Source: Caulobacter sp. UNC358MFTsu5.1 (GTDB lineage: Bacteria; Pseudomonadota; Alphaproteobacteria; Caulobacterales; Caulobacteraceae). Taken from it: a DNA stretch of 64,000 nucleotides. The stretch is from contig NZ_JONW01000010.1 in assembly GCF_000712075.1 (NCBI RefSeq), forward strand, positions 248,092 through 312,091. Reading direction: 5' to 3'. Position 1 is the stretch's first letter. Every line of letters begins with the position of its first letter. Shown piece by piece: positions 45,434 through 62,601 of this stretch. A program made the position numbers and the translations under genes. Under the pieces are notes generated by a model. The model was not told the origin of the DNA and searched no databases. It saw nothing but the letters and a program-made list of their open reading frames with translations.

Positions 45434-47908
45434 ATGTCGAACCAACGGCTTTTGATGGCGGGTTCTTCCGCCGCTGTTCTGCTCGCTCTGTCCGTCGCCG
45501 CGTCGCCCGGTCACGCCTTCGCCGCCGATACGCCGGCCGCCGATCCGGCCGACGCCTCGACCGCGGTGGACGAGATCGTGGTCAAGGCGCGGGACAAGGC
45601 GGGTCTGATCGAGACCCGACCCAACAACACGGTGTTCGGCATCGACAAGCCGCTGCTGGAGACGCCGCGCTCGGCCAGCTTCGTCAGCGACACCACCCTG
45701 CAGCGCTACGGGATCGAGACCATCGACGGCCTGACCGCCGTCTCGCCCGGCACCTACACCGCCAGCTTCTACGGCGTGCCCGGCGCGCTGAACATCCGGG
45801 GCACCCTGGCCGAGAACTACTTCCGCGGCTTCAAGCGCATCGAGAACCGCGGCACCTACTCCACGCCCATCGGCGCGGCCGACCAGATCCAGATCGTGCG
45901 CGGTCCGCCGACCCCGATCTACGGCTCGGGCAAGGTGGGCGGCATGCTCAACTTCATCCCGAAGTCCGGGAAGAACGAGGGCGGCTACCTCAGCGAACCG
46001 ACCGGCGAGGTCACGGCCACCTTCGGCTCATACAACAGGAAGAACGCCACGGCCCAGCTGGGCCTGCCCGTGAACCTCGGCCCCGTGACCGGCGGCGTCT
46101 ACGCCTATGGCGAGGTCGAGGACAGCCACAGCTTCTACAAGGGCATCTATCCGCGTCGCCAGACCGGCGAGATCTCGGCCGACTTCGACCTGGGCAACGG
46201 CTGGTCGACGGCCTTCGGCGGCATGAAGTACCACTCGGACGGCGACGTGCAGACGCCCGGCTGGAACCGCCTGACCCAGAGCCTGATCGACAACGGGACC
46301 TACACCACCGGCCGCGACACCACCCTGGTCGACAGCGACCACAACGGCCGCATGACCCTGAACGAGATCAGCGGCAACAGCGCCAACCCGTACTATTACG
46401 ACCCGGCGTTCAACCCGCTCTACATCCCGTACTACGGGTTCTACAACACCAACGCCGCCCACATCCTTGACACCGGCGTGGGCACGACCAAGCTGTCGCC
46501 GCGCACGGTCTATATCAGCCCGGCCGACTTCTCGAAGACCGACACCAACACCCTGTACTTCGACCTGGCCAAGGCCCTGTCGCCGACCAGCACGATCAAG
46601 GCGCAGTTCTTCTACGACGACCAGGAGAACAAGCGCTTCGTCAGCTACGGCTATCCGGCCTGGTTCGACAGCTCGGTCTGGGAAGGCCGCCTGACCTACA
46701 ACTTCGAGAACACGTTCGCGGACGGCGCGGTCACGGCCAAGTCGTTCGTCGGCGCCTCGTACCGCGACTTCTCGGGCCGCCGGCGCGAAAGCTACAACAG
46801 CGGCGTGATCGCCCTGGACCGCCGCGACATCAGCTTCGGCGCCACGGCCACCGACATCATCGACAGCCCCTTCACCACCGAGACCGGCGCCGGCGTGCTC
46901 GGGCTCGCTTGGGAAAACGACAACAAGTCCGACTGGAGCCAGAAGGGCGTGTTCTTCATGACCGACGTCATGATCGCCGAGAAGCTGAACCTGATGCTGG
47001 GCGGCCGCTGGGACGACTACGACGTCACCTCGCACGACACCGGCGTGCTCAGCTACCAGGTCTCGGGCGAGCAGAAGGCGGGCAAGGACAAGTTCACCTA
47101 CAGCGCCAGCGCCACCTACAAGGCCCCGGGCGGCGTGATGCCCTACATCACCTACGCCAAGGCCTCGGCCCTGGAGATGAGCCAGGCCGGCGACGTGGCC
47201 GCCAGCCTGGTGGCCGATCCCAGCGGCGCCTGGCTGTCCGACAGCGACCTGGCCGAGGCCGGGGTCAAGTTCCAGTGGCTGAAGGGCACCCTGGTCGGCT
47301 CGCTGGCCGGCTACCGCCAGAACCGCACCCAGCTGACCGGCATCACCGGCACGCCCACCGGCACCCGCGCCAAGGGCGTGGAGCTGGAAGTGCGCTGGCT
47401 GGCCAGCGAGAACTTCAGCTTCACCTTCTCGGGCAACAGCCAGCACACCACGGTCAAGGGCCCCGACACCTCGTTCCAGTACATCCCGGCCTACACCGCC
47501 GGCGTGCCCGGTTCGCAGGCCTTCGGCGGCACCTATGTGGTCTGGGCGTTCAACAGCCTGCCCGGCCGCGCGGGCGACTACGACTACACCCTGATCCCCA
47601 AGTCGGTGGTCAGCCTGTACGGCGCCTACACCAGCGACGACTACAGCTGGGGCAAGGTCGGCGGCACGCTGGGCGTCACCCACGTGACCAAGACCTCGGG
47701 GACCGTGCAGAACGCCGTGACCTATCCGGCCTACTACGTGGCCAACGCCTCGGCCTACTACGAGTACGGGCCGTACACGGTGACGGCCAACATCGATAAC
47801 CTGTTCGACAAGCTCTACTTCACGCCCGACGCCGACAGCTACGCCAACCTCGGCGCGCTGCCCAGCAAGGGCCGCGAGTGGCGCGTGACCCTGTCGCGCA
47901 AGTTCTAG
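45434..47908 (+). CDS. TonB-dependent receptor of the catabolic cluster
   Basis: 824 residues: a signal peptide (about 1-30, GHAFAAD), plug domain (TPRSASFVSDTTLQRYGIETIDGL, IQIVRGPPTPIYGSGKVGGMLNFIPKSGK) and a long barrel ending RVTLSRKF with terminal Phe. The plug differs from the siderophore receptor at 25066, lacking the PQSVTVI phrase, so an organic nutrient is more likely than iron. It should import the cluster's substrate through the outer membrane with TonB energy. It is followed, after 60 bases, by an MFS permease, forming an uptake pair. Confidence 0.88.
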   Translation: MSNQRLLMAGSSAAVLLALSVAASPGHAFAADTPAADPADASTAVDEIVVKARDKAGLIETRPNNTVFGIDKPLLETPRSASFVSDTTLQRYGIETIDGLTAVSPGTYTASFYGVPGALNIRGTLAENYFRGFKRIENRGTYSTPIGAADQIQIVRGPPTPIYGSGKVGGMLNFIPKSGKNEGGYLSEPTGEVTATFGSYNRKNATAQLGLPVNLGPVTGGVYAYGEVEDSHSFYKGIYPRRQTGEISADFDLGNGWSTAFGGMKYHSDGDVQTPGWNRLTQSLIDNGTYTTGRDTTLVDSDHNGRMTLNEISGNSANPYYYDPAFNPLYIPYYGFYNTNAAHILDTGVGTTKLSPRTVYISPADFSKTDTNTLYFDLAKALSPTSTIKAQFFYDDQENKRFVSYGYPAWFDSSVWEGRLTYNFENTFADGAVTAKSFVGASYRDFSGRRRESYNSGVIALDRRDISFGATATDIIDSPFTTETGAGVLGLAWENDNKSDWSQKGVFFMTDVMIAEKLNLMLGGRWDDYDVTSHDTGVLSYQVSGEQKAGKDKFTYSASATYKAPGGVMPYITYAKASALEMSQAGDVAASLVADPSGAWLSDSDLAEAGVKFQWLKGTLVGSLAGYRQNRTQLTGITGTPTGTRAKGVELEVRWLASENFSFTFSGNSQHTTVKGPDTSFQYIPAYTAGVPGSQAFGGTYVVWAFNSLPGRAGDYDYTLIPKSVVSLYGAYTSDDYSWGKVGGTLGVTHVTKTSGTVQNAVTYPAYYVANASAYYEYGPYTVTANIDNLFDKLYFTPDADSYANLGALPSKGREWRVTLSRKF

Positions 47909-47968
47909 TTCCCCCTGTCCCGCGCTCCGGACAGGGGCGCGGGACATCGCTTTGACGGAGGCATGCCC

Positions 47969-49267
47969 ATGTCGTCGACGATCCCGTGGAGATCCTGGCT
48001 GCTGCTCGGCGCGCTGAGCCTGCTGCTGTTCCTGATCACCGCCTCGACCTTCTCGTCGCTGGGCGTGGTGCTGCCGGCGATGATCAAGGAGAACGGCTGG
48101 AGCTTCTTCAACGGCTTCCTGGGCTTCACCCTGCTGGGCGCGTTTTGCGGCGCATCCTCCAAGTTCCCCGCCATCCTGATCCGCAAGATCGGGGTGCGCG
48201 GCGCCATCCTGGCCGGCTCGGCGGTGATGGTGGCGGGCTTCGCGTGCCTGGCGGCCTCGCCGGGCCTGTTGGTCTACTGGCTGGGCACGGCGCTGCTGGG
48301 CGCGGGCTATCAGATGATGGCCCTGATCCCCGGCACCCACGTGCTGTCGATGCTGTTCAAAAAGCGCGCCCTGCCGTTCGGTATCTATTTCACCATCGGT
48401 TCGCTGGGCGGCGTGGCCGGGCCGTGGATGGCGGTGACGGGCATGGCCGCGGCCCATGGCGGCTGGCGGCCCTACTGGTGGGCCCAGGCGGTCGCGTCGG
48501 TCGTGGTCGGCGTCCTGTGCGCGACCCTGGTCGGCGGCCGCGCGTGGCTGGAAGCCGCCGCCGTCGAGACCGACAAGGCCGTTGCCGAGGACATCCAGGC
48601 CGCGCCCGCCGACAGCAAGGTCTATCGCACCGCCGTCGACTGGACGGTCAAGGAAGCGGTCGCCACCCCGCAGTTCTGGGTGATCCTGGCCGCCTATTTC
48701 GCCCACCTGCTGGGCGGGGTCACGGCCGTCAGCCTGGCGCCGAGCCATCTGAGCGAGCTGGGCGTGGTCTCGGCCGTGGCGATCGCCGCCATCAGCTTCG
48801 AGTCGCTGATGCAGGTGGCGGCCCGGATGGGGGGCGGCCTGCTGGGCGACCGCATCGACCCGCGCTGGCTGCTGGCCGGGGCGCAGGGGATGATGGCCGT
48901 CGGCCTGCTGGCCCTGGCCTACGCCACCACCTGGCCGCTGCTGGTGCTGTTCGCCGTGGGCGTCGGCGTCGGGTTCGGCCTGACGGTGCTGGCGGTCAGC
49001 ATCCTTCTGCTCAACTACTATGGCCGGAAGAACAACCTGGAGATCTTCTCCCTGGTCTGCCTGGTGGGCGCGGTCTCGGCCCTGGGGCCGGTGGTCGGCG
49101 GCGAGATGCGCGACCGCCTGGGCAGTTTCGTCCCGACCTTCCAGGCGTGCGCGGTCATAATCGGCCTGATCTTCGTGGCCGCCTGCTTCATGCGACCGCC
49201 GCGCAAGGCCACCCAAATAGAGCCGGTCGCCGAACCGGTCCCTGATATGCTTCAAGACGCCGCGTAA
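47969..49267 (+). CDS. MFS transporter of the catabolic cluster
   Basis: 432 residues with about 12 membrane segments, a central loop near residues 185-215, and LLGDRIDPRWLLAG between helices 8 and 9 (motif A). The N-terminal FSSLGVVLPAMIKENGWS resembles oxalate/monocarboxylate (OFA/MCP)-type MFS proteins. It probably carries the substrate across the inner membrane. ATGs occur at 47963 and 47969; GGAGG (47957-47961) is correctly spaced only for 47969. Confidence 0.88.
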   Translation: MSSTIPWRSWLLLGALSLLLFLITASTFSSLGVVLPAMIKENGWSFFNGFLGFTLLGAFCGASSKFPAILIRKIGVRGAILAGSAVMVAGFACLAASPGLLVYWLGTALLGAGYQMMALIPGTHVLSMLFKKRALPFGIYFTIGSLGGVAGPWMAVTGMAAAHGGWRPYWWAQAVASVVVGVLCATLVGGRAWLEAAAVETDKAVAEDIQAAPADSKVYRTAVDWTVKEAVATPQFWVILAAYFAHLLGGVTAVSLAPSHLSELGVVSAVAIAAISFESLMQVAARMGGGLLGDRIDPRWLLAGAQGMMAVGLLALAYATTWPLLVLFAVGVGVGFGLTVLAVSILLLNYYGRKNNLEIFSLVCLVGAVSALGPVVGGEMRDRLGSFVPTFQACAVIIGLIFVAACFMRPPRKATQIEPVAEPVPDMLQDAA

Positions 49268-49279
49268 GGAGGAGCCGCC

Positions 49280-50344
49280 ATGTTCCACAGCCCATCCAAG
49301 CACAAGGACTTCGGGGTCTTCCTCCCGGTCGCCAACGGCGGCTGGATCATCTCCAAGACCACCCCGGTCCTCGACGGCCTCTACCAGCAGAACAAGGCCG
49401 CGGCGGTGAAGGCCGACGAGGTCGGCATGGACTTCGTGATGTCCATGGGCAAGTTCCGCGGCTTCGGCGGCGAGACCGACCACTGGGGCACGGCCCTGGA
49501 GTCGGTGACCATGATGGCCGGCATCGCCGAGGCCACCAAGAACGTCCGCATCTGGGCCACCATCCACCCGCTGCTGCAGAACCCGGCCGTGGCGGCCAAG
49601 ATGATCGCCACCCTGGACCACATCAGCGGCGGCCGGGCGGGCCTGAACATCGTGGCCGGCGCCTACAAGGGCGAGTTCGACCAGATGGGGGCCTGGGACG
49701 ACAGCCTGTCCCACGACGACCGCTACGCCCTGACCGAGGAATGGACGACGATCGTCAAGCGCCTGTGGTCCGAGGACAGCGTCGACTTCGCCGGCAAGTT
49801 CTTCACGATGAAGGACTGCCAGTCCAAGCCCAAGCCGCTGGCCAAGCCGCGTCCCGAGATCGTTTGCGCCGGCATGTCCGACCGCGGCTTCCAGTTCTCG
49901 GTGCGCGAGGCCGACGTCTGCTTCATCGGCGGCCGCACCCCCGACGAGCGCCGCGACGCCTCGCTGCGCGCCAAGGCGGTGGCCGAGACCATGGGCAAGA
50001 CCATCAAGACCTACGCCATGTGCACGGTCGTCCACGGCGACACCGACGCCGAGGCCGCCGCGATGGTCGAGCACTACAAGGACGGGGCCGACATCGGCGC
50101 GATCCTGGCCATGCTGGCCAGCTGGGGCGTGCCGGCCGACAAGCTGGACTCCGTGGCCAAGCAGCAGGGCGCCTTCATGACCCACACCGTGGTCGGCTCG
50201 CCCAAGACCTGCGGCGAGCAGATCCAGGAGTATATCGACTACTGCCAGCTGGACGGGCTGATGCTGATCTTCCCGGACTATGTCGAAGGCCTGACCATGT
50301 TCGGCGCCGACATCCTGCCGGGCCTGCGGGCGGTCTATTCGTGA
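49280..50344 (+). CDS. RutA-like flavin-dependent monooxygenase (LLM class)
   Basis: 354 residues, a bacterial-luciferase TIM barrel. FGVFLPVANGGWIIS, SMGKFRGFGGETDHW, LESVTMMAGIA, VAAKMIATLDHISGGRAGLNIVAG and FFTMKDCQSKPKP parallel E. coli RutA closely. RutA uses reduced FMN and O2 to cleave the uracil N3-C4 amide bond. Here the partners are a RutB-like hydrolase (4-base overlap), an M20 hydrolase and a flavin reductase, but no RutC, RutD, RutE or RutG, so the ring opened is probably not uracil. AAGGAGGAG before the ATG is a strong ribosome-binding site. Confidence 0.88.
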   Translation: MFHSPSKHKDFGVFLPVANGGWIISKTTPVLDGLYQQNKAAAVKADEVGMDFVMSMGKFRGFGGETDHWGTALESVTMMAGIAEATKNVRIWATIHPLLQNPAVAAKMIATLDHISGGRAGLNIVAGAYKGEFDQMGAWDDSLSHDDRYALTEEWTTIVKRLWSEDSVDFAGKFFTMKDCQSKPKPLAKPRPEIVCAGMSDRGFQFSVREADVCFIGGRTPDERRDASLRAKAVAETMGKTIKTYAMCTVVHGDTDAEAAAMVEHYKDGADIGAILAMLASWGVPADKLDSVAKQQGAFMTHTVVGSPKTCGEQIQEYIDYCQLDGLMLIFPDYVEGLTMFGADILPGLRAVYS

Positions 50345-50982
50345 GCGAGGCCGCTGACGGCCTGGCGGCCTGGATCGCGCCGAAGCGCACGGCGGTGCTG
50401 GTGATCGACATGCAGGTCGACTTCGCCTCGCCGGACGGGGTGCTGGGCGGCTTCGTCGATATGAGCGTGGTGAAGCCCGCCCTGGCGGCCGCCGAGACCC
50501 TGGTGGCCGAGGCCCGCGCGGCCGGCGTGCCGGTGGTGTTCGTGGGCCTGTGGACGACACCCGAGACCGACAGCGCGGCCTGGAACGAGCGCATGCGCCG
50601 GCGCGGGGGCGACCCCGACGTCGACGCGGCCCTGTGCCGGGCCGGGCAGGTGGGCTCCGAGTTCTACGGGCCCCAGCCGGCGCCGGGCGAGCTGGTGGTG
50701 CACAAGACCCGCTACAGCGGCTTCGTGGGCACGGATCTGGACATGCGGCTCACGGGGATGGGCGTCGATACCCTGGTGGTGGCCGGCGTCACCACCGAGT
50801 GCTGCGTCGACAGCACCGTCCGCGACGCCTTCGACCTGGACTACCACGTGTTCGTCGCCGCCGACGCCTGCGCCGCCTACGAGGCGGACATCCACGAGGC
50901 GTCGCTGAAGGTGATGGAGTTGAACAGCGCGATCCTGACCGACACGGCGGCGATCGCGAACGCTTGGAAAGGGGCTGCCTGA
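50341..50982 (+). CDS. RutB-like isochorismatase-family amidohydrolase
   Basis: 213 residues from a GTG start overlapping the RutA-like stop (GTGA). The catalytic triad is visible: Asp23 (VIDMQVDF), Lys122 (HKTRYSGF) and Cys155 (TTECCVDST). RutB of the Rut pathway hydrolyses ureidoacrylate and releases carbamate; the KxRYSGF segment is shared. It should hydrolyse the linear amide or ureide made by the RutA-like enzyme. Confidence 0.88.
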   Translation: MSEAADGLAAWIAPKRTAVLVIDMQVDFASPDGVLGGFVDMSVVKPALAAAETLVAEARAAGVPVVFVGLWTTPETDSAAWNERMRRRGGDPDVDAALCRAGQVGSEFYGPQPAPGELVVHKTRYSGFVGTDLDMRLTGMGVDTLVVAGVTTECCVDSTVRDAFDLDYHVFVAADACAAYEADIHEASLKVMELNSAILTDTAAIANAWKGAA

Positions 50983-50984
50983 GT

Positions 50985-52370
50985 ATGGCCGACGGATTTC
51001 CGCCACTGGGCGCCTCGGCGCCGTACCAGGTCACCGACGAGGACCGCGCCGCGATCGCCGCCGCGATCGACGAGGCCGAGATCGTCGAACTGGCCCTGAC
51101 CCTGGGCAACATCCCCGCGCCGTCGGGCAAGGAGCTGGAGGTCGCCACCTACGTCCACGACTGGATGGCGCGCGAGGGCTTCTCGCCGCGCAAGGTCGGG
51201 GCCACGCCCGAGCGGCCCAACATCATCGGCACGCACGGCGGCAAGGGTGTCGGCAAGAACCTGCTGTTCACCGCCCACCTCGACACCGAGGCGCCGACCT
51301 GGAACCCGGACCTGGACGCCTACAAGTACAGCCCCGACACCCTGGCCAATCCCGAATGGGAGAAGTGCTGGCTGGAGGACGGCAAGCTGTATGGCTATCC
51401 GATCGCCAACGATCGCGGCCCGATGAGCTGCTTCCTGATCGCCGCCAAGGCGCTGAAGAAGGCCGGCTACGAGCTGGCGGGCAAGATGTACCTGACCGCC
51501 TGTCCCGGCGAGATCGGCCCCGAGCCGATCGAGGAGCACCGGGGCGTGGCCTACATGGGCAAGGACATCGGGGCCCACTACCTGTTCCACCACGGCGGCG
51601 TCGCCCCTGACTACGCCATCGCCGCCGAGGGCTGCGACTTCGGCCTGACCTGGGTCGGCTGCGGCTATGCGGTGTTCCGCTTCCAGGTGTGGGGCGAGGG
51701 GGTCTTCACCCCGCTGCTCGAGCATCCGGCGACGGCGGCCGCGCATCCCAACCCGATCTACAAGATCGGCAAGCTGACCGAGGCGATCCACGCCTGGAGC
51801 GGTGAGTACGAGAAGAAGAGCCGCTACGACAGTCCCGGCGGCGTGGCCCAGCCCAAGTCGCAGATCGCCTCGATCCGCGGCGGCATCCCCTACGCCTTCG
51901 GGGCGGGGACCGAACTGGTGAACCTCTATCTGGAGGTAGGTCTGACGCCCAAGCAGCGCGTGGCCGACGTCCAGCATTCGCTGGAGGCCATGGTGCGCGA
52001 AGCCGGCCTGGGCCGGATCGACATCGAGCCGGTGGTCGTGCGCCACGGCTTCGAGGCCGACGCCCGCGAGGTGGCCCCGCTGGTCGCCGCCGTGGACGAG
52101 GCCACCAAGCTCAGCCTCGGCCATCCCGTGGCCCTGGCCAATCCGGTCTATTCCAGCATGTGGCGCGACCACAACGTGTTCAACATGCAGCGCATCCCGG
52201 CCATCACCACCGGCTTCCGCCGCTGGCGGCCGACGCCGAAGGATCTGGTCGACAGCGCCCTGGTCTACGCCCTGACCGCCCTGGCGGTCTGCGGCCGGGC
52301 CAGCCCGGACGAGAGCGCCAAGCGCCCGGCCTCGGCGGTCTATCCCGACAATCCGTTCGGGAACGAGTGA
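50985..52370 (+). CDS. M20-family metallohydrolase
   Basis: 461 residues. The dinuclear metal site is visible as AHLDTE (about residue 98), ANDRGP (about 143), CPGEIGPEPIEE (general base Glu and metal Glu, about 175) and AAEGCD; the C-terminal RDHNVFNMQRIPAITTG supplies the last His. It resembles M20 amidohydrolases (carbamoylase, acylase, nitroanthranilate aminohydrolase groups) more than true peptidases. In the cluster it probably hydrolyses an amide, carbamoyl or aromatic amine intermediate. GAAAGGGG precedes the ATG and its stop shares a base with the flavin reductase start. Confidence 0.85.
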   Translation: MADGFPPLGASAPYQVTDEDRAAIAAAIDEAEIVELALTLGNIPAPSGKELEVATYVHDWMAREGFSPRKVGATPERPNIIGTHGGKGVGKNLLFTAHLDTEAPTWNPDLDAYKYSPDTLANPEWEKCWLEDGKLYGYPIANDRGPMSCFLIAAKALKKAGYELAGKMYLTACPGEIGPEPIEEHRGVAYMGKDIGAHYLFHHGGVAPDYAIAAEGCDFGLTWVGCGYAVFRFQVWGEGVFTPLLEHPATAAAHPNPIYKIGKLTEAIHAWSGEYEKKSRYDSPGGVAQPKSQIASIRGGIPYAFGAGTELVNLYLEVGLTPKQRVADVQHSLEAMVREAGLGRIDIEPVVVRHGFEADAREVAPLVAAVDEATKLSLGHPVALANPVYSSMWRDHNVFNMQRIPAITTGFRRWRPTPKDLVDSALVYALTALAVCGRASPDESAKRPASAVYPDNPFGNE

Positions 52371-52864
52371 TGTCGGCGGCTCTCAAGGAAATGGCCCCGG
52401 AGCCGCACGACTTCCGCAAGGCGATGGGCAGCTTCGCGGCGGGGGTGACCGTGGTCACCGTCTGTCACGAAGGGCGCCTGGTCGGCACCACGGTCAGCGC
52501 CTTCAGCTCGGTGTCGATGGACCCGCCGCTGGTCATGGTCTGCCTCAAGCGCGACAGCCGCACCCTGGCGGCGCTGGGCCAGGCCGGGAGCTTCTGCGTC
52601 AACATCCTGGCCAGCGACCAGGGCGACCTGGCCTATCGCTTCGCCAAGAGCGGGGCCGACGACCGCTTCGCCCTGACCGTCGTCGAGGCCGGAGTGGGCG
52701 GCCACCCGCTGCTGGCCGGCGCGGTCGCGGCGGTCGAATGCGACCTGCACGCCGCCCACGACGGCGGCGATCACGAGATCCTGGTCGGCCGCGTCCTGCG
52801 CGTGGCGGTCGACGACGCCAAGGCCCCGCTCGTCTATGTGCGCGGCGGCTTTCTGAACGCTTAG
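52370..52864 (+). CDS. Flavin reductase (RutF/HpaC like)
   Basis: 164 residues with FRKAMGSFAAGVTVVTV, GTTVSAFSSVSMDPPLVMVCLKRDS, FCVNILASDQ and a C-terminal LVYVRGGFLNA, the pattern of short-chain FMN reductases of two-component monooxygenases. It should feed reduced FMN to the RutA-like enzyme; supply to the Rieske oxygenase is possible but less likely. The ATG overlaps the M20 stop (TGATG). Confidence 0.92.
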   Translation: MSAALKEMAPEPHDFRKAMGSFAAGVTVVTVCHEGRLVGTTVSAFSSVSMDPPLVMVCLKRDSRTLAALGQAGSFCVNILASDQGDLAYRFAKSGADDRFALTVVEAGVGGHPLLAGAVAAVECDLHAAHDGGDHEILVGRVLRVAVDDAKAPLVYVRGGFLNA

Positions 52865-52876
52865 GGGAGCGGTTCC

Positions 52877-54650: not shown

Positions 54651-55255
54651 GCGCCCAGGCGGTCGACCAGATAGAGCCGCGCCATCGACCGGAACTCGGC
54701 GATCGCCTGGGCCGGGGCGGGTTCGGCCTCGAGCATGGCGACCATCTTCATGCTGCCCAGGAAGGCGATGGCCACGTCGCGGACGGCCTGGGCGGGCTTG
54801 TCCGGCGCGCGCCTGGCCAGGAGGGCGGCGATCCGGTCGCGCATCATGTCGCGCAGGGCGGCCGAGCGGGTGTTGCGGTCCGGCCGGCTGTCGACCAGGG
54901 CCAGGGCCGCGTCGCGCTCGTGGCGGCGGCTGGGGAACAGGTCCAGCAGGGCGTCGGCCAGGGCGGCGGTCGACAGGCCGGGTAGGGCGGCCTCCAGCGC
55001 GTCCAGCGCCTCGCCCAGCTGGCCCGCGTAGCGGTCGATCAGGGCGTCGGCCAGCACGTCCTTGTTCGGGAAGAACTGGTACAGCGATCCGATGGGCGCG
55101 CCCGCCCGGGCGGCGATCTGGGTCATGGTCGCCGCCTCGAAGCCCTTCTCCGCGAACACCGCCAGGGCCGCGTCCTGCAGGGCGGCCACGCGCAGTTCGC
55201 CCCGTTTGCGCTGGGGCGCACGGGCGGCGGTTGACTTAGATGAGGGCATCCTCAT
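54647..55255 (-). CDS. TetR-family regulator, divergent from the YecD-like gene
   Basis: 202 residues with a TetR helix-turn-helix at about 28-75 (AVFAEKGFEAATMTQIAARAGAPIGSLYQFFPNKDVLADALI) and a helical ligand domain. Starts at 55255 and 55249 are both possible; both fall inside the first of two tandem operator-like repeats, implying autorepression. The stop overlaps the convergent epimerase stop by CTAG bases. It most likely represses itself and the hydrolase at 55348. Confidence 0.88.
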   Translation of the reverse strand: MRMPSSKSTAARAPQRKRGELRVAALQDAALAVFAEKGFEAATMTQIAARAGAPIGSLYQFFPNKDVLADALIDRYAGQLGEALDALEAALPGLSTAALADALLDLFPSRRHERDAALALVDSRPDRNTRSAALRDMMRDRIAALLARRAPDKPAQAVRDVAIAFLGSMKMVAMLEAEPAPAQAIAEFRSMARLYLVDRLGA

Positions 55256-55347: not shown

Positions 55348-55917
55348 ATGATCAAGCTCGATCCCAAGACCACGGCCCTGGTGCTGATCGACCTGCAGAA
55401 CGGCATCCTGGCCATGCCCGTCGCGCCCCGCACGGGCCCCCAGGCCCTGGCGGCCGGCAAGGCCCTGGCCGAGCGCTTCCGCGCCGCCGGCGCCCCCGTG
55501 GTGTTGGTCAATGTGGCCTTCGCCGCCGACGACGGCGACCGGGTCAAGACGCCCGTCGACCAGCCGATGGCCCTGCCGCCCGGCGGCTTCCCGGCCGGCT
55601 GGGGCGACCTGGCCGACGGCCTGGCCCAGCCCGGCGACATCCGCGTGACAAAGCGCCAGTGGAACGCCTTCCACCAGACAGGGCTGGACCTGGAACTGCG
55701 CCGGCGGGGGATCACCACGGTGGTCCTGGCCGGGGTGGCGACCAATCTGGGCGTCGAGTCGACCGCGCGGGCCGGCTACGAGCACGGCTACGCCATGGTG
55801 CTGGTCGAGGACGCGATGACCACCTTCTCGCCCGAGATGCACGCCTTCGCGGTCGAGCGCATCTTCCCGCGCATCGGCCGGGTGAGCACGGCGTCGGATC
55901 TGGCCCTGGAGGCCTGA
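55348..55917 (+). CDS. YecD-like isochorismatase-family protein
   Basis: 189 residues. MIKLDPKTTALVLIDLQNGIL, VTKRQWNAFHQTGLDLELRRRGI and GVATNLGVESTARAGYE follow E. coli YecD closely. Asp15 and the Lys of TKRQW are present, but the nucleophile Cys of the family is Gly (NLGVEST), as in YecD itself, so hydrolase activity by the standard mechanism is not expected. The ATG at 55348 gives the YecD N-terminus. It is controlled by the divergent TetR gene through the tandem repeats. Confidence 0.88.
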   Translation: MIKLDPKTTALVLIDLQNGILAMPVAPRTGPQALAAGKALAERFRAAGAPVVLVNVAFAADDGDRVKTPVDQPMALPPGGFPAGWGDLADGLAQPGDIRVTKRQWNAFHQTGLDLELRRRGITTVVLAGVATNLGVESTARAGYEHGYAMVLVEDAMTTFSPEMHAFAVERIFPRIGRVSTASDLALEA

Positions 55918-55924
55918 CGGACGG

Positions 55925-55953: not shown

Positions 55954-55958
55954 CCCGG

Positions 55959-56444
55959 CTACTCGCGGGTGAAGTCGGCCGGGATCTCCGGGTTCGCGCC
56001 CGCCTTGCCCCACAGGACGATCTCGTTGCCCCACGGGTCGCGGAAGGCGTGGTTGTAGCCGTTGAACTCGGCCCAGTAATGGTCGCGCCACAGCAGGGTC
56101 GCGCCCAGCTCCTGGGCCTTGCCCAGGATGCGGTCGGCGCTGTCGTCGTCGCCGATCAGCACCCAGACGCGGGGTTTGCGGCCGTCGGTCGACAGGTGGC
56201 GGGGCTCGACGCCGGCGGGCTCGGGGTGGGGACGGGCGTTGGCGGCCTTGAAGATCCCCAGGTGCAGGTTGCCGATCTCGCTGTCGGTCCCGTCGCTCTT
56301 CTTGAAGAAGCCGCCGGGCACCATGCGATGGTACTCGCCCTGCGGCCGGGCGTCGTTCTGCCAGCCGAAGACCTCCGCATAGAAGTTGCCGGCGGCGTCC
56401 GGGTCTTCCGAGGCCAGGTCGACGAAGATCAGGGTGTTGGTCAC
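55959..56444 (-). CDS. VOC-superfamily (glyoxalase/bleomycin resistance like) protein
   Basis: 161 residues from a GTG start overlapping the SDR stop (GTGA). Two beta-alpha-beta modules are visible: TLIFVDLASEDPDAAGNFYAEVFGW and VWVLIGDDDSADRILGKAQELGATLLW...FRDPWGNEIVLWGK. Metal ligands are plausible at His/Glu positions in strand 1 and DPWGNE. Such proteins act as lyases, dioxygenases or binding proteins; the role here is unknown. Confidence 0.83.
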   Translation of the reverse strand: MTNTLIFVDLASEDPDAAGNFYAEVFGWQNDARPQGEYHRMVPGGFFKKSDGTDSEIGNLHLGIFKAANARPHPEPAGVEPRHLSTDGRKPRVWVLIGDDDSADRILGKAQELGATLLWRDHYWAEFNGYNHAFRDPWGNEIVLWGKAGANPEIPADFTRE

Positions 56445-57268
56445 GGGCGGTCCTCAAAACCGATGGAAAGGGTCAGGTCCTTCCAGGCGTCGATGTCGGC
56501 CTGGAGGCCGGCGGCGGCGTAGCCGGCGTATTTCAGGGCGTCCTCGCCCAGCAGCAGGTGCAGGGGCGGGGCCTCCTCGTCGGCGATGCGCAGGACCGCC
56601 TGGGCGGCCTTGGCCGGGTCGCCCGGCTCGTGGCCGGCGTGGTCGGCCATGATCCGTTCGGCGTCGCGGGCCAGGCCGTCGTAGTCGGCGATCTTGCTGG
56701 CCACGATCGTCTTGGAGCCGCCGGCGAAATTGGTGCGCAGGCCGCCGGGGGCGACGTTGGTGACCTTGATGCCTAGCTCGGCCACCTCGGCGGCCAGGGT
56801 CTGGGTCAGGCCCTCCAGCGCCCACTTGCTGGCGCAGTAGACGCCGGTGCCGGCCCAGACGGCCAGGCCCGAGACCGAGGTGACGTTGATGATCCGCCCG
56901 GTCCGGCGGGCGCGCATGGCCGGCAGAACGGCCTTCAGCATCGCCAGCGGGCCGACGACGTTGGTCTCGAACTGGGCGCGGAGTTCGTCCAGCGAGGCTT
57001 CCTCCACCGCGCCCACGAGGCCGTAGCCGGCGTTGTTGACCAGGACGTCGATCTTACCGACGGCCTCCACCTCGGCGACGCCCTTACGGACCGCCGCCTC
57101 GTCGGTGACGTCCAGCACCAGGGCATGGCCGCCCAGCAGCTCGAAGGCGTCGGCGTCCTTGGCCTTGCGCACCGTGCCGAAGACGGTGTCGCCGCGCGCG
57201 ATGGCCGCCAGGGCGATCTCGCGGCCCAGTCCGCCGGACACGCCGGTGATCAGCCAGGTCTTGGTCAT
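56441..57268 (-). CDS. SDR-family oxidoreductase
   Basis: 275 residues with TGVSGGLGREIA (cofactor loop), NNAGYG, the Ser of VTSVSG and catalytic YCASK. The C-terminal region follows the classical SDR group often annotated oxidoreductase/SDR near TetR regulators. It is translationally coupled to the VOC gene. NADP(H) use is likely from the Arg in the second strand (TVRKAKD). A family B repeat starts 24 bases upstream of its start codon. Confidence 0.9.
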   Translation of the reverse strand: MTKTWLITGVSGGLGREIALAAIARGDTVFGTVRKAKDADAFELLGGHALVLDVTDEAAVRKGVAEVEAVGKIDVLVNNAGYGLVGAVEEASLDELRAQFETNVVGPLAMLKAVLPAMRARRTGRIINVTSVSGLAVWAGTGVYCASKWALEGLTQTLAAEVAELGIKVTNVAPGGLRTNFAGGSKTIVASKIADYDGLARDAERIMADHAGHEPGDPAKAAQAVLRIADEEAPPLHLLLGEDALKYAGYAAAGLQADIDAWKDLTLSIGFEDRP

Positions 57269-57291
57269 CGACTTCTCAACTCATCAAAGGG

Positions 57292-57397
57292 TGTCATCCC
57301 GGAAGCGCGTAGCGCTGTCCGGGACCCAGGTGAACCGCACCGCATCCGCCCAGTCCCCTGGGTCCCGGACAGCCTCTGCGAGGCTTCCGGGATGACA
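57292..57397. repeat. Palindromic element, family B copy 2
   Basis: Perfect 15-base terminal arms TGTCATCCCGGAAGC (57292-57306) and GCTTCCGGGATGACA (57383-57397). The interior matches copy 1 at 53701-53811 in the same orientation. It lies between the start of the SDR gene and the stop of TauD2 (18 bases away). Confidence 0.9.
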
Positions 57398-57415
57398 ACG
57401 GAAGGTGCGGCGAAA

Positions 57416-58294
57416 CTAGTACGGCTTGTCGCCCTTCACCCACAGCCGGTGCATGGTCCGGAAGTACTTGGTGTCGTCGTACAGCGTGCCGGTGTGCAGG
57501 GTGCAGCGGTTGTCCCACATCAGCAGGTCGCCCTTGGACCACTTGTGGCGGTAGACGAAGTCGTCGCCGGTCATGAACGCCACCAGCTCCTCGATCAGGG
57601 CCAGGCCCTCGGGGCCGGGCTTGCCGATCACCTCGGTCACCGTGCCGGTCGAGGGCCACAGGGCCTTGCGGCCGTCGGCCGGGTGGGTGCGGATCAGCGG
57701 GTGCTCGACGTCGGGATTGGCCGCCTCCAGCTCGGGCGACAGGTTCTGCTGCTGGCCGAACTGGCGGGTGGCCATGAAGTGCTTGTAGCTGTGGTGCAGG
57801 CTCAGCGGCAGCAGCTCGGCCTGCTTCTCGGGCGAGAGGGCGTTCCAGGCGGCGCAGCCGTCGGCCAGCAGGGTGTCGGAGCCCTCGTCGGGCACCTCGA
57901 CCGCATAGAGCATGGTCAGCATCACCGGCTCGGGCTTGTAGCTGTAGTCGGTGTGCCAGCCGACGCCGTCGTTGTGGGCGCCGATCGGCTTGCCGTCCAC
58001 GACCCGGTTGCTGAGGATGAAGATCTTCGGATAGCCGGGCAGGGTGAAGCGGGTCTGGGTGTGGTCCTCGGCCTCGCCGAACCGGCCGATGAAGCGCATC
58101 AAGTCGTCCGGCGTCATCGACTGGCCAGGGATCACCACGGCGCCGTGGCGATGGAAGGCGGCCACCACCTTGTCGATCTCGGCGTCGGGCGCGGTCGACA
58201 GGTCCAGGTCGTGGATGCGGGCGCCGAAGCCGGGCTTCAGTTCCGAGATCGTCAGGTCGTCGGCGAGCGTCATGTCCACGGGCGCGGTCCTCAT
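57416..58294 (-). CDS. TauD/TfdA-family Fe(II)/2-oxoglutarate dioxygenase 2
   Basis: 292 residues with His114-x-Asp116 (VGWHTDYSY), distal His in WDNRCTLHTG and Arg in RTMHRLWVKGD. The WHTD..YKPEP form is typical of the TfdA/SdpA-like branch; it is only distantly like TauD1. GTG and ATG starts at 58279 and 58273 are alternatives with better-placed GAGGA, so the N-terminus is uncertain by seven residues. It is divergent from the Rieske operon. Confidence 0.88.
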   Translation of the reverse strand: MRTAPVDMTLADDLTISELKPGFGARIHDLDLSTAPDAEIDKVVAAFHRHGAVVIPGQSMTPDDLMRFIGRFGEAEDHTQTRFTLPGYPKIFILSNRVVDGKPIGAHNDGVGWHTDYSYKPEPVMLTMLYAVEVPDEGSDTLLADGCAAWNALSPEKQAELLPLSLHHSYKHFMATRQFGQQQNLSPELEAANPDVEHPLIRTHPADGRKALWPSTGTVTEVIGKPGPEGLALIEELVAFMTGDDFVYRHKWSKGDLLMWDNRCTLHTGTLYDDTKYFRTMHRLWVKGDKPY

Positions 58295-58549
58295 CGAAGC
58301 TTTGTGAGCTCAACCTAGGCCCCGTCCAAGGCCACGTCTTGCCGGTACGCGCACGACGGCTTTGCGTGCGCGTCCGGCAAAGTCATCCGGCGCCGCAAGC
58401 TTGCGCGCCTTTTGCTCATTTCCGCCCGAGAACCCGGCGACGCCGCCCGCTGGCCAGGCGACGGCCAACTTATCGTGCGCGCTGGTGCAAGACCGGTGGG
58501 CGCGCCCCGCCTAGCCTTCGTATCGATCTTGCGAAGGAGCGCAGCCGCC
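58295..58549. promoter_or_regulatory. Divergent control region of TauD2 and the Rieske operon
   Basis: The 255-base region holds a long inverted repeat TTGCCGGTACGCGCACG (58339-58355) / CGTGCGCGTCCGGCAA (58365-58380), complementary except for one bulged T. A perfect 12-base palindrome CGCAAGCTTGCG (58394-58405) and a TGAGCTCA palindrome near 58305 follow the pattern. These are the best candidates for AraC-regulator sites of the cluster. AAGGAGC precedes the Rieske ATG. Confidence 0.55.
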
Positions 58550-59758
58550 ATGGGCCTCTCGCCCGCACCCAATCTCGACGACGCCTTCTTCGACGGCCTG
58601 TCGCGCTCGATGCGCGACGTCGACGCGGCCGAGACCCTGCCGCCCGCCTGCTACACCGACGCGGCCTTCTACGACTTCGAGAAGGAGGCGCTGTTCAATC
58701 ACGAATGGCTGTGCGTGGGCCGCGTGGACTGGGTGAAGGAGGCCGGCGACTACTTCACCACCACGATCATCGGCGAGCCGATCATCGTCACCCGCAACCG
58801 CTCCAACGAGATCAAGGCGATGTCGGCGGTGTGCCAGCACCGCGCCATGCTGGTGGCCGAGGGCCGGGGCAACACCCGGGGCTTCGTCTGCCCCTATCAC
58901 CACTGGGTCTATTCGCTGAACGGCGACCTGGTGAACGCCCCGGCCATGGAGCGGGCCTGCGACTTCGACAAGAAGGCCGTCAAGCTGCCGACCTTCAAGG
59001 TCGAGGTCTGGCTGGGTTTCATCTTCATCAATTTCGACGCCGACGCGCCGCCCCTGGCCCCGCGCCTGACGGCGGTCGAGGCGGCGGTGGCTAACTACGA
59101 CCTCGCCAACGCCGAGGGCCTGACCCCGCCGATGACCGGCCAGTTCGCCTGGAACTGGAAGGTGATGTTCGAGAACAACAACGACGGCTACCACGCCAAC
59201 AAGCTGCATCGCGGCCCGCTGCACGACTTCATCCCCAGCGAGCTCTGCAGCTTCCCCGAGGCGGGCGCGGACGACGCCGGCTTCCTGCGCTTCAACGGCA
59301 CCACTCATCCGGACGTCAGCTTCAACCCGACCCAGAAGGCCGTGCTGCCGGTCTTCCCGAAGCTGACCGACCAGGACCGCAACCGCGCCACCTTCGCCAA
59401 CATCCCGCCGACCCTGTCGCTGGTGATGACCAGCGACATGGTCATCTACCTGATCCTGCGGCCCACGGGTCCCGAGACCATGGAGCAGGACACCGGCCTG
59501 CTGGTCGCGCCGGGCGCCACCGAGGTCAACGGCTTCGAGGAGCGGCTGGAGATGATCATGACCTCGGCGGGCAAGATCATCGCCCAGGACATGCACGTCG
59601 ACGAACTGGTCCAGGTGGGCCTGCGCTCGCGGTTCGCGGTGCGCGGCCGGTACTCCTGGCAGGAGGGGGCGCAGGTGCAGTTCAACCGCTGGCTCACGCC
59701 GCGCTACCAGAAGGCCTGGGCGGCGCTGAAAGGCCCGAAGGCGGAGGTCGCCGCATGA
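58550..59758 (+). CDS. Rieske non-haem iron oxygenase, alpha subunit
   Basis: 402 residues. The Rieske [2Fe-2S] site is Cys95-x-His97 and Cys114-x2-His117 (CQHRAM, CPYHHWVY). The mononuclear Fe site is in the C-terminal domain: FENNNDGYHANKLH with Asp212, His215 and His220. Such oxygenases hydroxylate or demethylate aromatic and N-methyl compounds. No ferredoxin or reductase gene is adjacent, so electrons must come from elsewhere. The stop overlaps the dioxygenase start by 4 bases. Confidence 0.92.
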   Translation: MGLSPAPNLDDAFFDGLSRSMRDVDAAETLPPACYTDAAFYDFEKEALFNHEWLCVGRVDWVKEAGDYFTTTIIGEPIIVTRNRSNEIKAMSAVCQHRAMLVAEGRGNTRGFVCPYHHWVYSLNGDLVNAPAMERACDFDKKAVKLPTFKVEVWLGFIFINFDADAPPLAPRLTAVEAAVANYDLANAEGLTPPMTGQFAWNWKVMFENNNDGYHANKLHRGPLHDFIPSELCSFPEAGADDAGFLRFNGTTHPDVSFNPTQKAVLPVFPKLTDQDRNRATFANIPPTLSLVMTSDMVIYLILRPTGPETMEQDTGLLVAPGATEVNGFEERLEMIMTSAGKIIAQDMHVDELVQVGLRSRFAVRGRYSWQEGAQVQFNRWLTPRYQKAWAALKGPKAEVAA

Positions 59759-60546
59759 GCCGCCTGCCCGTCGCCTTCTTCGGTCACGGCAGCCCGATGA
59801 TCGCCCTGGAAACCAACGACACCACCCAGACGTGGAAGGCGATGGGCGAGGCGTTCGGCAAGCCCAAGGCCATCCTCTGCATCTCGGCCCACTGGCTGAC
59901 CAAGGGCGTCGGCGTCACCGCCATGGCCGCCCCGCGCACCATCCACGACTTCGGGGCCTCGTTCCCGCAGGCGCTGTTCGACGTTCAGTACCCCGCGCCC
60001 GGCTCGCCCGAGCTGGCGGCGCGGGTGCGCGACCTGCTGGCGCCGCTGCCGGTGACCCTGGACCAGCAGGCCTGGGGCCTGGACCACGGGACCTGGTCGG
60101 TGCTGTGCAAGGCCTATCCCGAGGCCGACGTGCCGGTGGTGCAGCTCAGCATGGACGCCTCCAAGCCGCCGGCGTGGCACTTCGAGCTGGCCCGGCGCCT
60201 GGCGCCCCTGCGCGACGAGGGCGTGCTGATCGTCGGCACCGGCAACATCGTCCACAACCTGCCGGCCATGAACTGGGGCGAGCGCCACTGCGCGCCCTAC
60301 GACTGGTCGCTGCGGTTCAACGACTACATCAAGCAGGCCATCGTCGACGACGCGCCCCAGCGGGTGGTGGACTTCGCCTCGCGCGGCGACGACGCCAGCC
60401 GCTCGGTCCCGACGCCCGACCACTTCTGGCCGCTGCTGTACGTGCTGGGCGCGCGCCTGCCCGGCGACGTCGCCGTCTTCGCCCCCGACCACATCGAGCA
60501 CGGCTCGCTGAGCATGACGTCCGTCACGCTCGCGCCGGCGGCCTGA
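59755..60546 (+). CDS. Class III extradiol dioxygenase (4,5-DOPA dioxygenase/YgiD like)
   Basis: 263 residues with metal ligands in FGHGSPM (His), ISAHWL (His), and the PTPDHFWPLLYV segment (His), plus LDHGTWS. This is the LigB/DODA family, which opens catechols next to the hydroxyls with O2. The ATG overlaps the Rieske stop, so hydroxylation and ring opening may be consecutive steps. The true substrate is unknown. Confidence 0.9.
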   Translation: MSRLPVAFFGHGSPMIALETNDTTQTWKAMGEAFGKPKAILCISAHWLTKGVGVTAMAAPRTIHDFGASFPQALFDVQYPAPGSPELAARVRDLLAPLPVTLDQQAWGLDHGTWSVLCKAYPEADVPVVQLSMDASKPPAWHFELARRLAPLRDEGVLIVGTGNIVHNLPAMNWGERHCAPYDWSLRFNDYIKQAIVDDAPQRVVDFASRGDDASRSVPTPDHFWPLLYVLGARLPGDVAVFAPDHIEHGSLSMTSVTLAPAA

Positions 60547-60563
60547 ACCCGAGAGACCCTGAG

Positions 60564-61640
60564 ATGCCCTTCATCTGCGAACCCGGCCAGACCCGCCCGG
60601 ACGTCCTGCCCGGCGCCCTGCACACCCTGAAGGCCACGCCGGCCACCGTGCACTGGGGCTATTTCGATCCGTCGATCAAGCCGGCCCTGCGCATCAAGTC
60701 CGGCGACCTGGTCAGCGCCGAGGCCATCACCCACCACGCCGGCGACGCCCCCGACCTGATGATGGACGAGGCGGTCACCCGCATCTTCACCGAGATCCCC
60801 GAGGACGACCGCAATCCCGGCGTCCACATCATGACCGGCCCGATCTTCGTCGAGGACGCCAAGCCCGGCGACGTGCTGGAGGTGCGCTACCTGCGCATGG
60901 TCCCGCGCAACAACTACGGCTCCAACCTCGCGGCCAACTGGGGCTACCTCTACAAGGAGTTCGGCGAGAAGGAGCGGGTGACGATCTACGAGCTGGATCA
61001 GAACACCAACACCGCCAGCGCCCTCTACGCCTACGACTTCGAAGGCAAGTACCTGATCCCCGGCACGATCACCAACTGCCCCGAGTGCGACCGCCAGCCG
61101 GCCCTGGGCGGCGTGCGCGTGGCGGCCCGGCCGCACCTGGGCACGGCGGGCGTGGCGCCGGCCATCGACGGCCGCGTCAGCACCATCCCGCCCGGCGCCC
61201 ACGGCGGCAACATCGACAACTGGCGGATCGGGGCGGGGGCGACGATGTACTACCCCGTCCAGGTCGAGGGCGGGCTGTTCTCGATCGGCGATCCGCACGT
61301 CAGCCAGGGCGACGGCGAGATCTCCGGCACGGCCATCGAAAGCTCGCTGAACGTCCTGATGCAGATCGTGCTGCGCAAGGACTTCGTCTCGCCCGGGCCC
61401 CTGCTGGAAACGCCGAAGTGGTGGATCGTCCACGGCTTCGACGAAAGCCTGGACGTGGCCATGAAGGACGCGTCGCTGAACATGCTGACCCTGCTCAGCG
61501 ATCACGTCGGCCTGTCGAAGAACGACGCCTATTCGCTGATGAGCGTGGCCTCGGACTTCGGGGTCACCCAGGTGGTCGACGGCAAGCAGGGCTGCCACGT
61601 GCGCATCCCGCGCGACATCTTCCCCCGAATGAAAGGTTAG
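60564..61640 (+). CDS. Acetamidase/formamidase family protein
   Basis: 358 residues of the FmdA/AmdA group: AEAITHHAGD, GVHIMTGPIFVEDAKPGD, NNYGSNLAANWGYL, a Cys pair in NCPECDRQP, and PPGAHGGNIDNWRIGAGATMYYPVQVEGGLFSIGDPHVSQGDGEISGTAIE split across residues 210-260. Metal-dependent formamidases release ammonia from formamide or small amides. In this operon it could remove a formamide or short amide left by ring cleavage. It follows the dioxygenase by 17 bases. Confidence 0.92.
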   Translation: MPFICEPGQTRPDVLPGALHTLKATPATVHWGYFDPSIKPALRIKSGDLVSAEAITHHAGDAPDLMMDEAVTRIFTEIPEDDRNPGVHIMTGPIFVEDAKPGDVLEVRYLRMVPRNNYGSNLAANWGYLYKEFGEKERVTIYELDQNTNTASALYAYDFEGKYLIPGTITNCPECDRQPALGGVRVAARPHLGTAGVAPAIDGRVSTIPPGAHGGNIDNWRIGAGATMYYPVQVEGGLFSIGDPHVSQGDGEISGTAIESSLNVLMQIVLRKDFVSPGPLLETPKWWIVHGFDESLDVAMKDASLNMLTLLSDHVGLSKNDAYSLMSVASDFGVTQVVDGKQGCHVRIPRDIFPRMKG

Positions 61641-61650
61641 GAGCGCCCCG

Positions 61651-62601
61651 ATGAAGGCCTGGTCGTTCAGCACCGACAGCCACCCCCGCGCCGAACGGGC
61701 GCAGGCCTGGCGCGAGGCGATGAGCCGGCTGGGCCTGCCGATCGAGGGGTTGCCCGACGCCGAGCCGGCCAGCGCCTCGGTGGTGTGCCTGACCTCGCCC
61801 CTGGGCATCGAGTTCGCCCTGGTCGAGGCCGGGGCCCAGGCGATCTCCGGACGCCTGTCGGGCCAGCCGGCGGCCGTCTGGCTTGCGGTGCTGCTGAACG
61901 GCGAGGGGACCCTCGTCACCGACGACCTGGCCGAGGCGCTGGAGCCCGGCGACATCGCCTACGGCCCCACCGGCCAGGCCGCGGCCCTGCGGCTGGAGAC
62001 CCGGTGCCGGCTGATGTTCGTCCGCGCCCCCAGGGTGGCCCTGGACCACCGGCTGATCACTCCCGTCAGCCTCCGCGTCGGGCGGCTGCAGGCGGCCACC
62101 GGCGTGGCCCACATCCTGTCGGGCCTGCTGCGGGCCACGGCCGACGGGCTGGAGGACCTGACGGTCGACCAGCTGCGGCCGGTCGAGCTGGCCCTCACCG
62201 AGTTCCTGGCCATCTGCCTGGCCGAGGGCGGGGCGGCGGCCGACGTGCTGGGCGTGGGGGCGGCCGCGCCCACCGCCCACCTCCAGCGCCTGTGCCAGAC
62301 CATCGAGACCCTGCTGCCCGATCCGGACCTGTCGCTGCGCCGGGTGGCCGACGAGGAGGGCGTCTCGCCCCGCTACGTCCAGAAGCTGTTCGCCAGCGCC
62401 GACGAGACCTTCAGCCACTATTTGCGCACGCGCCGGCTGGAGCGCTGCCGCACCGACCTGGCCAGTCCGCAGCACGCGCGGCTGTCGATTTCGGAGATCT
62501 GCTTCCGCTGGGGGTTCAACGGCTCGGCCCATTTCAGCCGGGCCTTCCGCGACCAGTACGGCGTCTCGCCGCGCGAGTTCCGCCAGCGCGCCGCGGCCTA
62601 G
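61651..62601 (+). CDS. AraC-family transcriptional regulator
   Basis: 316 residues: an N-terminal ligand-sensing domain of the AraC-binding-2 type (WREAMSRLGLPIEG..., LLNGEGTLVTDDLAEALEPGD) and a C-terminal double helix-turn-helix (LSLRRVADEEGVSPRYVQKLFASADETFSHYLRTRRLERC, ISEICFRWGFNGSAHFSRAFRDQYGVSPREFRQ split by a linker). It is the last gene of the Rieske operon (10 bases behind the formamidase) and probably activates this operon and others in the cluster in response to substrate. Confidence 0.92.
   Translation: MKAWSFSTDSHPRAERAQAWREAMSRLGLPIEGLPDAEPASASVVCLTSPLGIEFALVEAGAQAISGRLSGQPAAVWLAVLLNGEGTLVTDDLAEALEPGDIAYGPTGQAAALRLETRCRLMFVRAPRVALDHRLITPVSLRVGRLQAATGVAHILSGLLRATADGLEDLTVDQLRPVELALTEFLAICLAEGGAAADVLGVGAAAPTAHLQRLCQTIETLLPDPDLSLRRVADEEGVSPRYVQKLFASADETFSHYLRTRRLERCRTDLASPQHARLSISEICFRWGFNGSAHFSRAFRDQYGVSPREFRQRAAA

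Follow-up and report, generated by a model that had tools for sequence, protein, structure and literature searches.

A Rut-like gene cluster of Caulobacter and its relatives as a candidate pathway for fused uracils, possibly riboflavin

Results

Gene content and layout of the cluster

The window, a 64,000-nucleotide stretch of Caulobacter sp. UNC358MFTsu5.1 (contig NZ_JONW01000010.1; genome G000, contig C10 in our numbering), contains at positions 45434–62601 a ~17-kb cluster in which a RutA-like flavin monooxygenase lies together with an amidase, an aminohydrolase and several dioxygenases, and which we analysed as a candidate catabolic pathway. A sequence-only reading of this stretch had named its uptake, Rut-like, M20, TauD, Rieske, extradiol, formamidase and AraC genes, all of which proved to be intact open reading frames (ORFs) of those families with the motifs sought in place. 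These included the Rieske CxH..CxxH motif at residue 95, HxD at 101 in the first and at 107/114 in the second TauD protein, D23 and ECC of the isochorismatase fold, and the DODA histidine motifs.

The cluster opened with a plus-strand series headed by a TonB-dependent outer-membrane receptor for uptake (45434–47908; PF00593/PF07715, siderophore-receptor-like below the cut-off), which headed the operon in most Caulobacteraceae loci, and a major facilitator superfamily (MFS) permease (47963–49267; PF07690), which resembled monocarboxylate or oxalate-formate carriers weakly (SfMCT, 71 bits versus a cut-off of 320) and adjoined the monooxygenase gene at most loci. The series continued with the RutA-like two-component flavin monooxygenase (LLM, 49280–50344), a RutB/biuret-hydrolase-like cysteine amidase (IsoC1, 50341–50982), an M20-fold aminohydrolase (M20, 50985–52370), a flavin reductase of the FerA/HpaC type, presumably the partner of LLM (52367–52864), and the Fe(II)/2-oxoglutarate (Fe/2OG) dioxygenase TauD1 (52877–53689; PF02668). 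A second plus-strand series closed the cluster and comprised the oxygenase component of a Rieske oxygenase (58550–59758; matched in NCBIfam and Pfam), a LigB/DODA-type extradiol dioxygenase (59755–60546; 347 bits, above the cut-off of 233), an FmdA/AmdA-family amidase (60564–61640; PF03069, with 77 bits to true formamidase against a cut-off of 500) and an AraC-family regulator (61651–62601; NCBIfam/Pfam).

The earlier gene list was thus correct, but the region also held, on both strands between the two series, an NAD epimerase-like protein (53832–54650, plus), a TetR regulator (54647–55255, minus), a second isochorismatase-family hydrolase (55351–55917, plus), a VOC/glyoxalase-fold protein (55959–56444, minus) and a short-chain dehydrogenase (SDR; 56441–57268, minus) proposed as a dihydrodiol dehydrogenase, next to the second Fe/2OG dioxygenase TauD2 (57416–58294, minus). 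All of these were assigned by profile match, the VOC protein through Pfam. Four-base overlaps, which the sequence-only reading had described for most genes, were found at five junctions (LLM/IsoC1, M20/flavin reductase and Rieske/DODA on the plus strand, SDR/VOC on the minus strand, and the convergent ends of the epimerase and TetR genes), but five other plus-strand junctions had gaps of 2–17 bases and the TonB/MFS junction one of 54, so that the description was overstated.

At 67 loci, each 9 kb or longer, best labels were compared, with 24 shorter loci left out and one label kept per place. Nowhere among them did TetR or the second isochorismatase come out as best label, a weak TetR match of 52 bits being seen at L112, and both are probably local insertions outside the pathway; the epimerase-like protein, present only at some Caulobacter loci, is probably accessory. 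The VOC protein was kept in extended clusters (63–81% identity outside the Caulobacter genus), and a PDB search returned no relative of it. ARAGORN placed a tRNA-Ala at 52912–53004 (minus) inside the TauD1 gene, a call absent from Rfam at gathering score and probably false, and a tRNA-Lys (CTT) at 62717–62792 (minus) lay immediately downstream of the AraC gene as a possible integration landmark.

The RutA-like monooxygenase, the amidase and the aminohydrolase

Nineteen window proteins were scanned against NCBIfam with its curated cut-offs and against Pfam, with a Pfam-A threshold of E 0.001. The scores bore out a cluster that is Rut-like yet distinct, with RutA at 274 bits (cut-off 498), RutB at 99 (378; BiuH 96) and RutF at 98 (255), and no RutC, RutD, RutE or RutG was detected among the nineteen proteins, as had been claimed. 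The label RutF-like fitted less well, given that the reductase scored 145 bits with FerA/HpaC-type reductases.

The best PDB relative of LLM was RutA (231 bits), riboflavin lyase (5w48) reaching 57 bits, and a canonical RutA was encoded elsewhere in the same genome (676 bits, G000:C8:225961). In a tree of 36 sequences, hand-chosen from those aligned for residue comparison, 28 cluster LLMs formed one group (support 100/96), separate from the four RutA sequences (100/100) and from four further RutA-like enzymes (96/97). Among 67 distinct orthologues of at least 46% identity, Thr86 and Asn115 of RutA, which we take to be its oxygen-activating pair, were kept in all 67, whereas Trp120, which presumably lines the uracil pocket, was replaced in all 67, by Ala in 53 and Ser in 14, with Tyr or Phe adjacent. 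By sequence, then, LLM is not RutA and represents a separate clade; plain uracil as the substrate, which the sequence-only reading had set against its own proposal, is disfavoured by the true RutA elsewhere in the genome and by the replaced tryptophan. Second LLM copies were common in the Caulobacter genus, and one (L114, G055:C29; 70% identity) sat in a further TonB-MFS-LLM trio lacking amidase and aminohydrolase. Another RutA-like LLM clade (40–44%) occurred at L097–L100 with Rid/RidA proteins, alpha/beta hydrolases and ABC transporters, and at L098 and L099 lay near TenA/thiaminase-II-type genes, representing a putative separate heterocycle pathway.

IsoC1 (~23 kDa) matched an uncharacterised member of its family (85 bits) and RutB (82 bits) in the PDB. 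The next protein (~50 kDa), earlier called an M20 hydrolase, has the M20 fold but no Pfam-A match at the threshold used, and its only PDB relatives at that level were structures of 5-nitroanthranilate aminohydrolase (NaaA; 5k8m/5k8p, 284–286 bits), with 5k8p matched over nearly the whole length at 286 bits. An Asn occupied the position of the Asp that we assume to be metal-bridging in 71 of 72 distinct orthologues, and all 72 carried an SMWRD motif, both features being shared with 5-nitroanthranilate aminohydrolase and absent from the two ordinary M20 enzymes compared. The known substrates of the relatives of LLM, IsoC1 and M20 are uracil (RutA), ureidoacrylate (RutB) and an electron-poor anthranilate (NaaA), respectively, and are thus analogues of successive intermediates in the opening of a fused uracil, which supports such a substrate.

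Association of the two halves of the cluster

Co-occurrence was examined in 199 relatives, for which Fisher values ignore phylogeny. LLM was found in 54 of these genomes, M20 in 40 (four of 44 first listed, with weak partial matches, being left out), Rieske in 38 and FmdA in 37. M20 and FmdA occurred together in 34 genomes, M20 alone in six, FmdA alone in three and neither in 156; FmdA was accompanied by Rieske in all 37 of its genomes, with Rieske alone in one, and M20 was never found without LLM. There were 51 named loci in all, and at 33 of the 47 that spanned at least 9 kb the M20 locus also held Rieske, DODA or FmdA. In seven Caulobacter genomes (G005, G010, G020, G022, G055, G062 and G073) M20 and Rieske lay ~19–41 kb apart on the same contig, and in the fragmented assemblies G004 and G071 they fell on different contigs.

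Joint loci in rearranged form were found in Komagataeibacter, Sphingomonas, Marisediminitalea, Alteromonas, Aliiglaciecola, Paraglaciecola and one alphaproteobacterial metagenome-assembled genome, with no Rieske gene in the stretch examined in Aliiglaciecola and Paraglaciecola, and in Kozakia the cluster formed a plasmid-borne island flanked on both sides by insertion sequence (IS) elements. When 398 genomes of the phylum were drawn, full-length M20 orthologues were present in only two, both of the window's genus and one of them G000 itself, the 17 other matching genomes giving weak partial matches only, so that the cluster is patchy in distribution. The pattern of association gives good support to a joint function of the cluster genes, in agreement with the earlier claim of one joint catabolic cluster; the opposite outcome, that the two operons rarely co-occur, was not what the 199 genomes gave.

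Variants of the cluster were also seen. The A. baumannii plasmid p2DB053 (L093), typed as mobilizable, carried the core set among IS elements, with an MFS gene annotated shorter than elsewhere. Three loci of the window's order (L021, L022 and L023) each held two M20 aminohydrolases, of 63–66% and 56–58% types, around one LLM; at L021 the second M20 adjoined genes for two aminotransferases and one AAA_26 protein, presumably bioA/bioF/bioD-like, which had homologues in L022. L104 (G113:C74) combined ribokinase, FmdA, SDR, DODA and Rieske without LLM or M20, next to a TonB receptor and an amidase whose C-terminal domain is of the allophanate-hydrolase type, a P450 lying several kb off.

Ribokinase linkage, dioxygenases and the amidase

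All six non-Caulobacter relatives with FmdA (G101, G102, G105, G112, G113 and G144) had a ribokinase gene 0.08–5.9 kb from a cluster gene, an arrangement with an estimated chance of ~2e-12, a value that treats the six genomes as independent although they are not, G101 and G113 being of the same genus. In G144 the ribokinase ORF, read from its first start codon, was embedded in the operon with a 4-base overlap with both neighbours; elsewhere the gene followed AraC (L063, L065, L068, L075, L088 and L066, the last cut by the contig end) or lay inside the cluster (L080, L091 and L096), and L072 ended where it would follow. All seven copies tested matched ribokinase better than any other family, at 216–283 bits against a curated cut-off of 300. 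No nucleosidase was found among the labelled genes of ribokinase-bearing clusters, a set that does not cover every ORF. Tsx-type channel genes lay near the core at L076, L081, L092 and L093, and three of the four clusters reduced to the core (Paraburkholderia graminis, A. baumannii, P. syringae and Pseudoduganella) had a Tsx-like channel gene.

Of the 32 tabulated clusters, 14 had a TauD2 orthologue (at least 59% identity) and five had a dioxygenase resembling gamma-butyrobetaine hydroxylase (at least 74%), never both; 13 had neither, seven of them core-only, and G112, another of the 13, had a third dioxygenase type beside LLM. From this alternation, extended clusters seem to need an Fe/2OG step. 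The ribokinase linkage and the alternating Fe/2OG oxygenases, taken together, would point to a ribityl compound, with riboflavin as the leading candidate.

The FmdA family also appeared in another form. AraC-FmdA/AmdA-type fusions of ~770–810 residues, often beside a free FmdA, occurred at L024, L077, L080, L083, L086, L091, L095, L096, L103 and L105, with the domains PF14525, HTH_18 and PF03069 demonstrated at L091 (11455–13800) and the others assigned from their matches and from the length of the ORF or gene; the FmdA fold may have turned sensor in these proteins. At L095, on plasmid pBN1 of Paraburkholderia aromaticivorans, an FmdA (71%) and a fusion lay beside a dihydropyrimidinase with LLM and M20 absent within 31 kb, and the pair may serve other pathways too.

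Discussion

A proposed pathway and the points against it

We propose that the substrate is a uracil fused to an aromatic ring that bears a ribityl group or another group able to yield ribose. The most probable such compound is riboflavin or another closely related flavin, and we put the probability of this reading at about 0.48. A fused uracil as such is a likely substrate; riboflavin leads the single compounds, with a probability slightly below one half. The substrate would be imported by the TonB and MFS proteins. In the Rut pathway, RutA converts uracil to ureidoacrylate, RutB yields aminoacrylate, and RutC/D/E handle the latter. LLM and its flavin reductase would likewise break the N3-C4 amide of the fused uracil, and IsoC1 would hydrolyse the ureido group to ammonia and CO2. 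With the uracil fused to an aromatic ring, the product would be an anthranilate-like amine or amidine, on which a nitroanthranilate-type aminohydrolase would be expected to act next, and RutC/D/E would be missing because the counterpart of aminoacrylate is an aryl amine. M20 would then exchange the remaining ring amine or imine for oxygen, releasing ammonia. The two Fe/2OG dioxygenases might carry out an oxidative decarboxylation and an N-deribosylation, in an order that is a guess; oxidative N-dealkylation of the ribityl group would give ribose, to be captured by ribokinase. The Rieske oxygenase and the SDR would produce a catechol for cleavage by the DODA-type dioxygenase, and the FmdA amidase would free nitrogen from an oxamide or oxamate part.

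A considerable number of observations weigh against this reading. LLM occurred without M20 in 14 of its 54 genomes, M20 was not found in G112 or at L096, and G102 and G113 had FmdA and Rieske without M20 and, at E 1e-100, without LLM. Conversely, the core of LLM, IsoC1, M20 and flavin reductase stood without ring-cleavage genes nearby on the Paraburkholderia graminis and A. baumannii plasmids, in P. syringae GR12-2 and in Pseudoduganella. The window cluster contained no Rieske reductase gene, a ferredoxin-reductase-type gene being present in the clusters of Kozakia, Komagataeibacter, Marisediminitalea, Alteromonas and G102. With their resemblance to monocarboxylate carriers, the MFS permeases would suit an organic acid, and the Tsx-like protein of L092 scored 19 bits with the Tsx model. 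Ribokinase is common as such (116 of the 199 relatives), its copies scored below the family cut-off, and none lay near the cluster in the 31 Caulobacter-genus genomes with FmdA: in 30 it lay on a different contig or no closer than 0.4 Mb (beside FliP in G000), and G038 had none. It was likewise missing at L074 and, within limited flanks, at the tabulated Alteromonadaceae, Variovorax, Komagataeibacter and Kozakia loci. No flavin riboswitch was found in the window or at 13 relative loci, where the RNA families were tmRNA, a c-di-GMP riboswitch outside the cluster and C4 RNA. Finally, riboflavin breakdown by Pseudomonas RF gave urea and oxamide, whereas ammonia and CO2 would be expected from a step of the RutB kind, leaving the urea unexplained.

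Alternative substrates and arrangements

The strongest competitor, which we consider unlikely, keeps the fused-uracil logic and changes the compound to lumichrome, the deazaflavin FO, ribityllumazine, a pterin or quinazolinedione, with ribokinase incidental or serving a related ribityl compound. The core found alone in several genera would suit any fused uracil, the Caulobacter cluster itself is without ribokinase, and lumichrome is described as ubiquitous in the rhizosphere in PMC12746152. The ribokinase linkage in several lineages nevertheless requires a source of ribose, and lumichrome, pterins and quinazolinedione give none; pteridines, moreover, have no carbocycle for the extradiol enzyme. 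The sequence-only reading had proposed a fused pyrimidine or amide-substituted aromatic and had named lumichrome for assay, a proposal supported in kind, with the exact substrate unproven.

That two independent neighbours are involved, one a Rut-like operon for scavenging nitrogen and the other an operon for an aromatic acid, is distinctly unlikely. The ~19–41-kb separation in seven Caulobacter genomes and the occurrence of each half alone in some genomes would fit it, but the co-occurrence over 199 genomes speaks against it, as do the loci of distant orders and of the Kozakia plasmid, where both halves are rearranged but together.

Highly unlikely is a quinoline- or pyridine-type carboxylate such as kynurenate or xanthurenate, in which Rieske, SDR and DODA would act first on the benzenoid ring before LLM and the hydrolases opened the pyridone. 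The classical kynurenate route needs Rieske-, SDR- and extradiol-type steps, which counts in its favour, as does the carboxylate-carrier-like permease. A single ring nitrogen, however, does not call for three C-N hydrolases, ribokinase and the Tsx channel would be without reason, the kinship of M20 and IsoC1 would go unexplained, and a literature search found no such gene cluster.

Scavenging of a sulfonated or amide-linked compound, with TauD1 desulfonating, is hardly credible despite the 280 bits of TauD1 with taurine dioxygenase (cut-off 313), since TauD-family enzymes have many substrates and nothing else seen in the conserved set points to sulfur.

Implications

In the portions of the literature available to us, genes for aerobic vitamin B2 breakdown comprise RcaE, which converts riboflavin to lumichrome in Microbacterium and Devosia, and one Nocardioides lumichrome pathway, and a literature search for a description of the present cluster found none. 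The kinship of M20 with aminohydrolases, the ribokinase link and the riboflavin hypothesis go beyond the sequence-only reading. If the riboflavin reading is true, the cluster would offer candidate genes to a pathway that since 1958 has been known by its chemistry alone, would extend the ways of opening fused uracils by an oxygenase route and would make a natural role for a DODA-type enzyme testable; the proteobacterial module would be wide but patchy, and flavin turnover would be expected elsewhere too, in the rhizosphere, fermented food, the sea and fresh water. Even if the substrate is another fused uracil, the triad of LLM, amidase and aminohydrolase provides a reusable annotation rule.

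Comparison with known systems

The cluster shares with the Rut pathway a RutA-like flavin enzyme with its reductase and a RutB-like amidase encoded directly after it, and differs in that an aminohydrolase replaces RutC/D/E and MFS and TonB proteins replace RutG. In the lum pathway of Nocardioides simplex, as described in PMC12746152, a lumichrome-derived ring is processed by the ureido hydrolase LumI (24 kDa) and the amino-to-oxo hydrolase LumM (52 kDa), followed by a decarboxylase, a xanthine-oxidase-type enzyme and then Rieske and extradiol dioxygenases. By enzyme class and size alone, IsoC1 and M20 correspond to these two hydrolases, and the Rieske and extradiol enzymes recur; by contrast, the window cluster uses LLM where lum uses the hydrolytic LumH, adds 2OG dioxygenases and an FmdA amidase and, in relatives, ribokinase. 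No P450, thiamin-dependent (TPP) decarboxylase or xanthine oxidase was found among the 19 window proteins scanned, and we therefore reject an identical lumichrome route: of the possibility, raised earlier, that the genes match a characterised pathway, the similar logic stands, but several enzyme types of lum are absent here. Opening of a homarine- or trigonelline-type pyridine was also considered and rejected, since the kinship of M20 does not fit it and the literature search yielded only a paper on how Vibrio uses betaine.

The same paper reports that Pseudomonas RF degraded riboflavin from the C-ring first, with subsequent ribose removal, passing through ribityl-dimethylquinoxalinedione, dimethylquinoxalinedione and a dimethyl-carboxypyrone and making urea and oxamide, that no enzyme was reconstituted and that the strain was lost (PMC12746152, 2025). 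These proposed intermediates and their order fit the window enzyme set. We suggest tentatively, with the odds leaning against it, that the cluster is the missing gene set of the Pseudomonas RF pathway across alpha-, beta- and gammaproteobacteria, in which a flavin enzyme would open riboflavin with reduced flavin and Fe/2OG dioxygenases would free ribose.

RcaE, the riboflavin monooxygenase of Microbacterium and Devosia, resembles the window LLM in fold and flavin dependence, but is not its closest relative, riboflavin lyase scoring 57 bits against 231 for RutA. NaaA (PDB 5k8p) shares the metal-site change and SMWRD motif of M20 and differs in gene context and presumably in substrate, and the extradiol enzyme, although well within DODA/YgiD by score, stands in a context that suggests a substrate other than DOPA.

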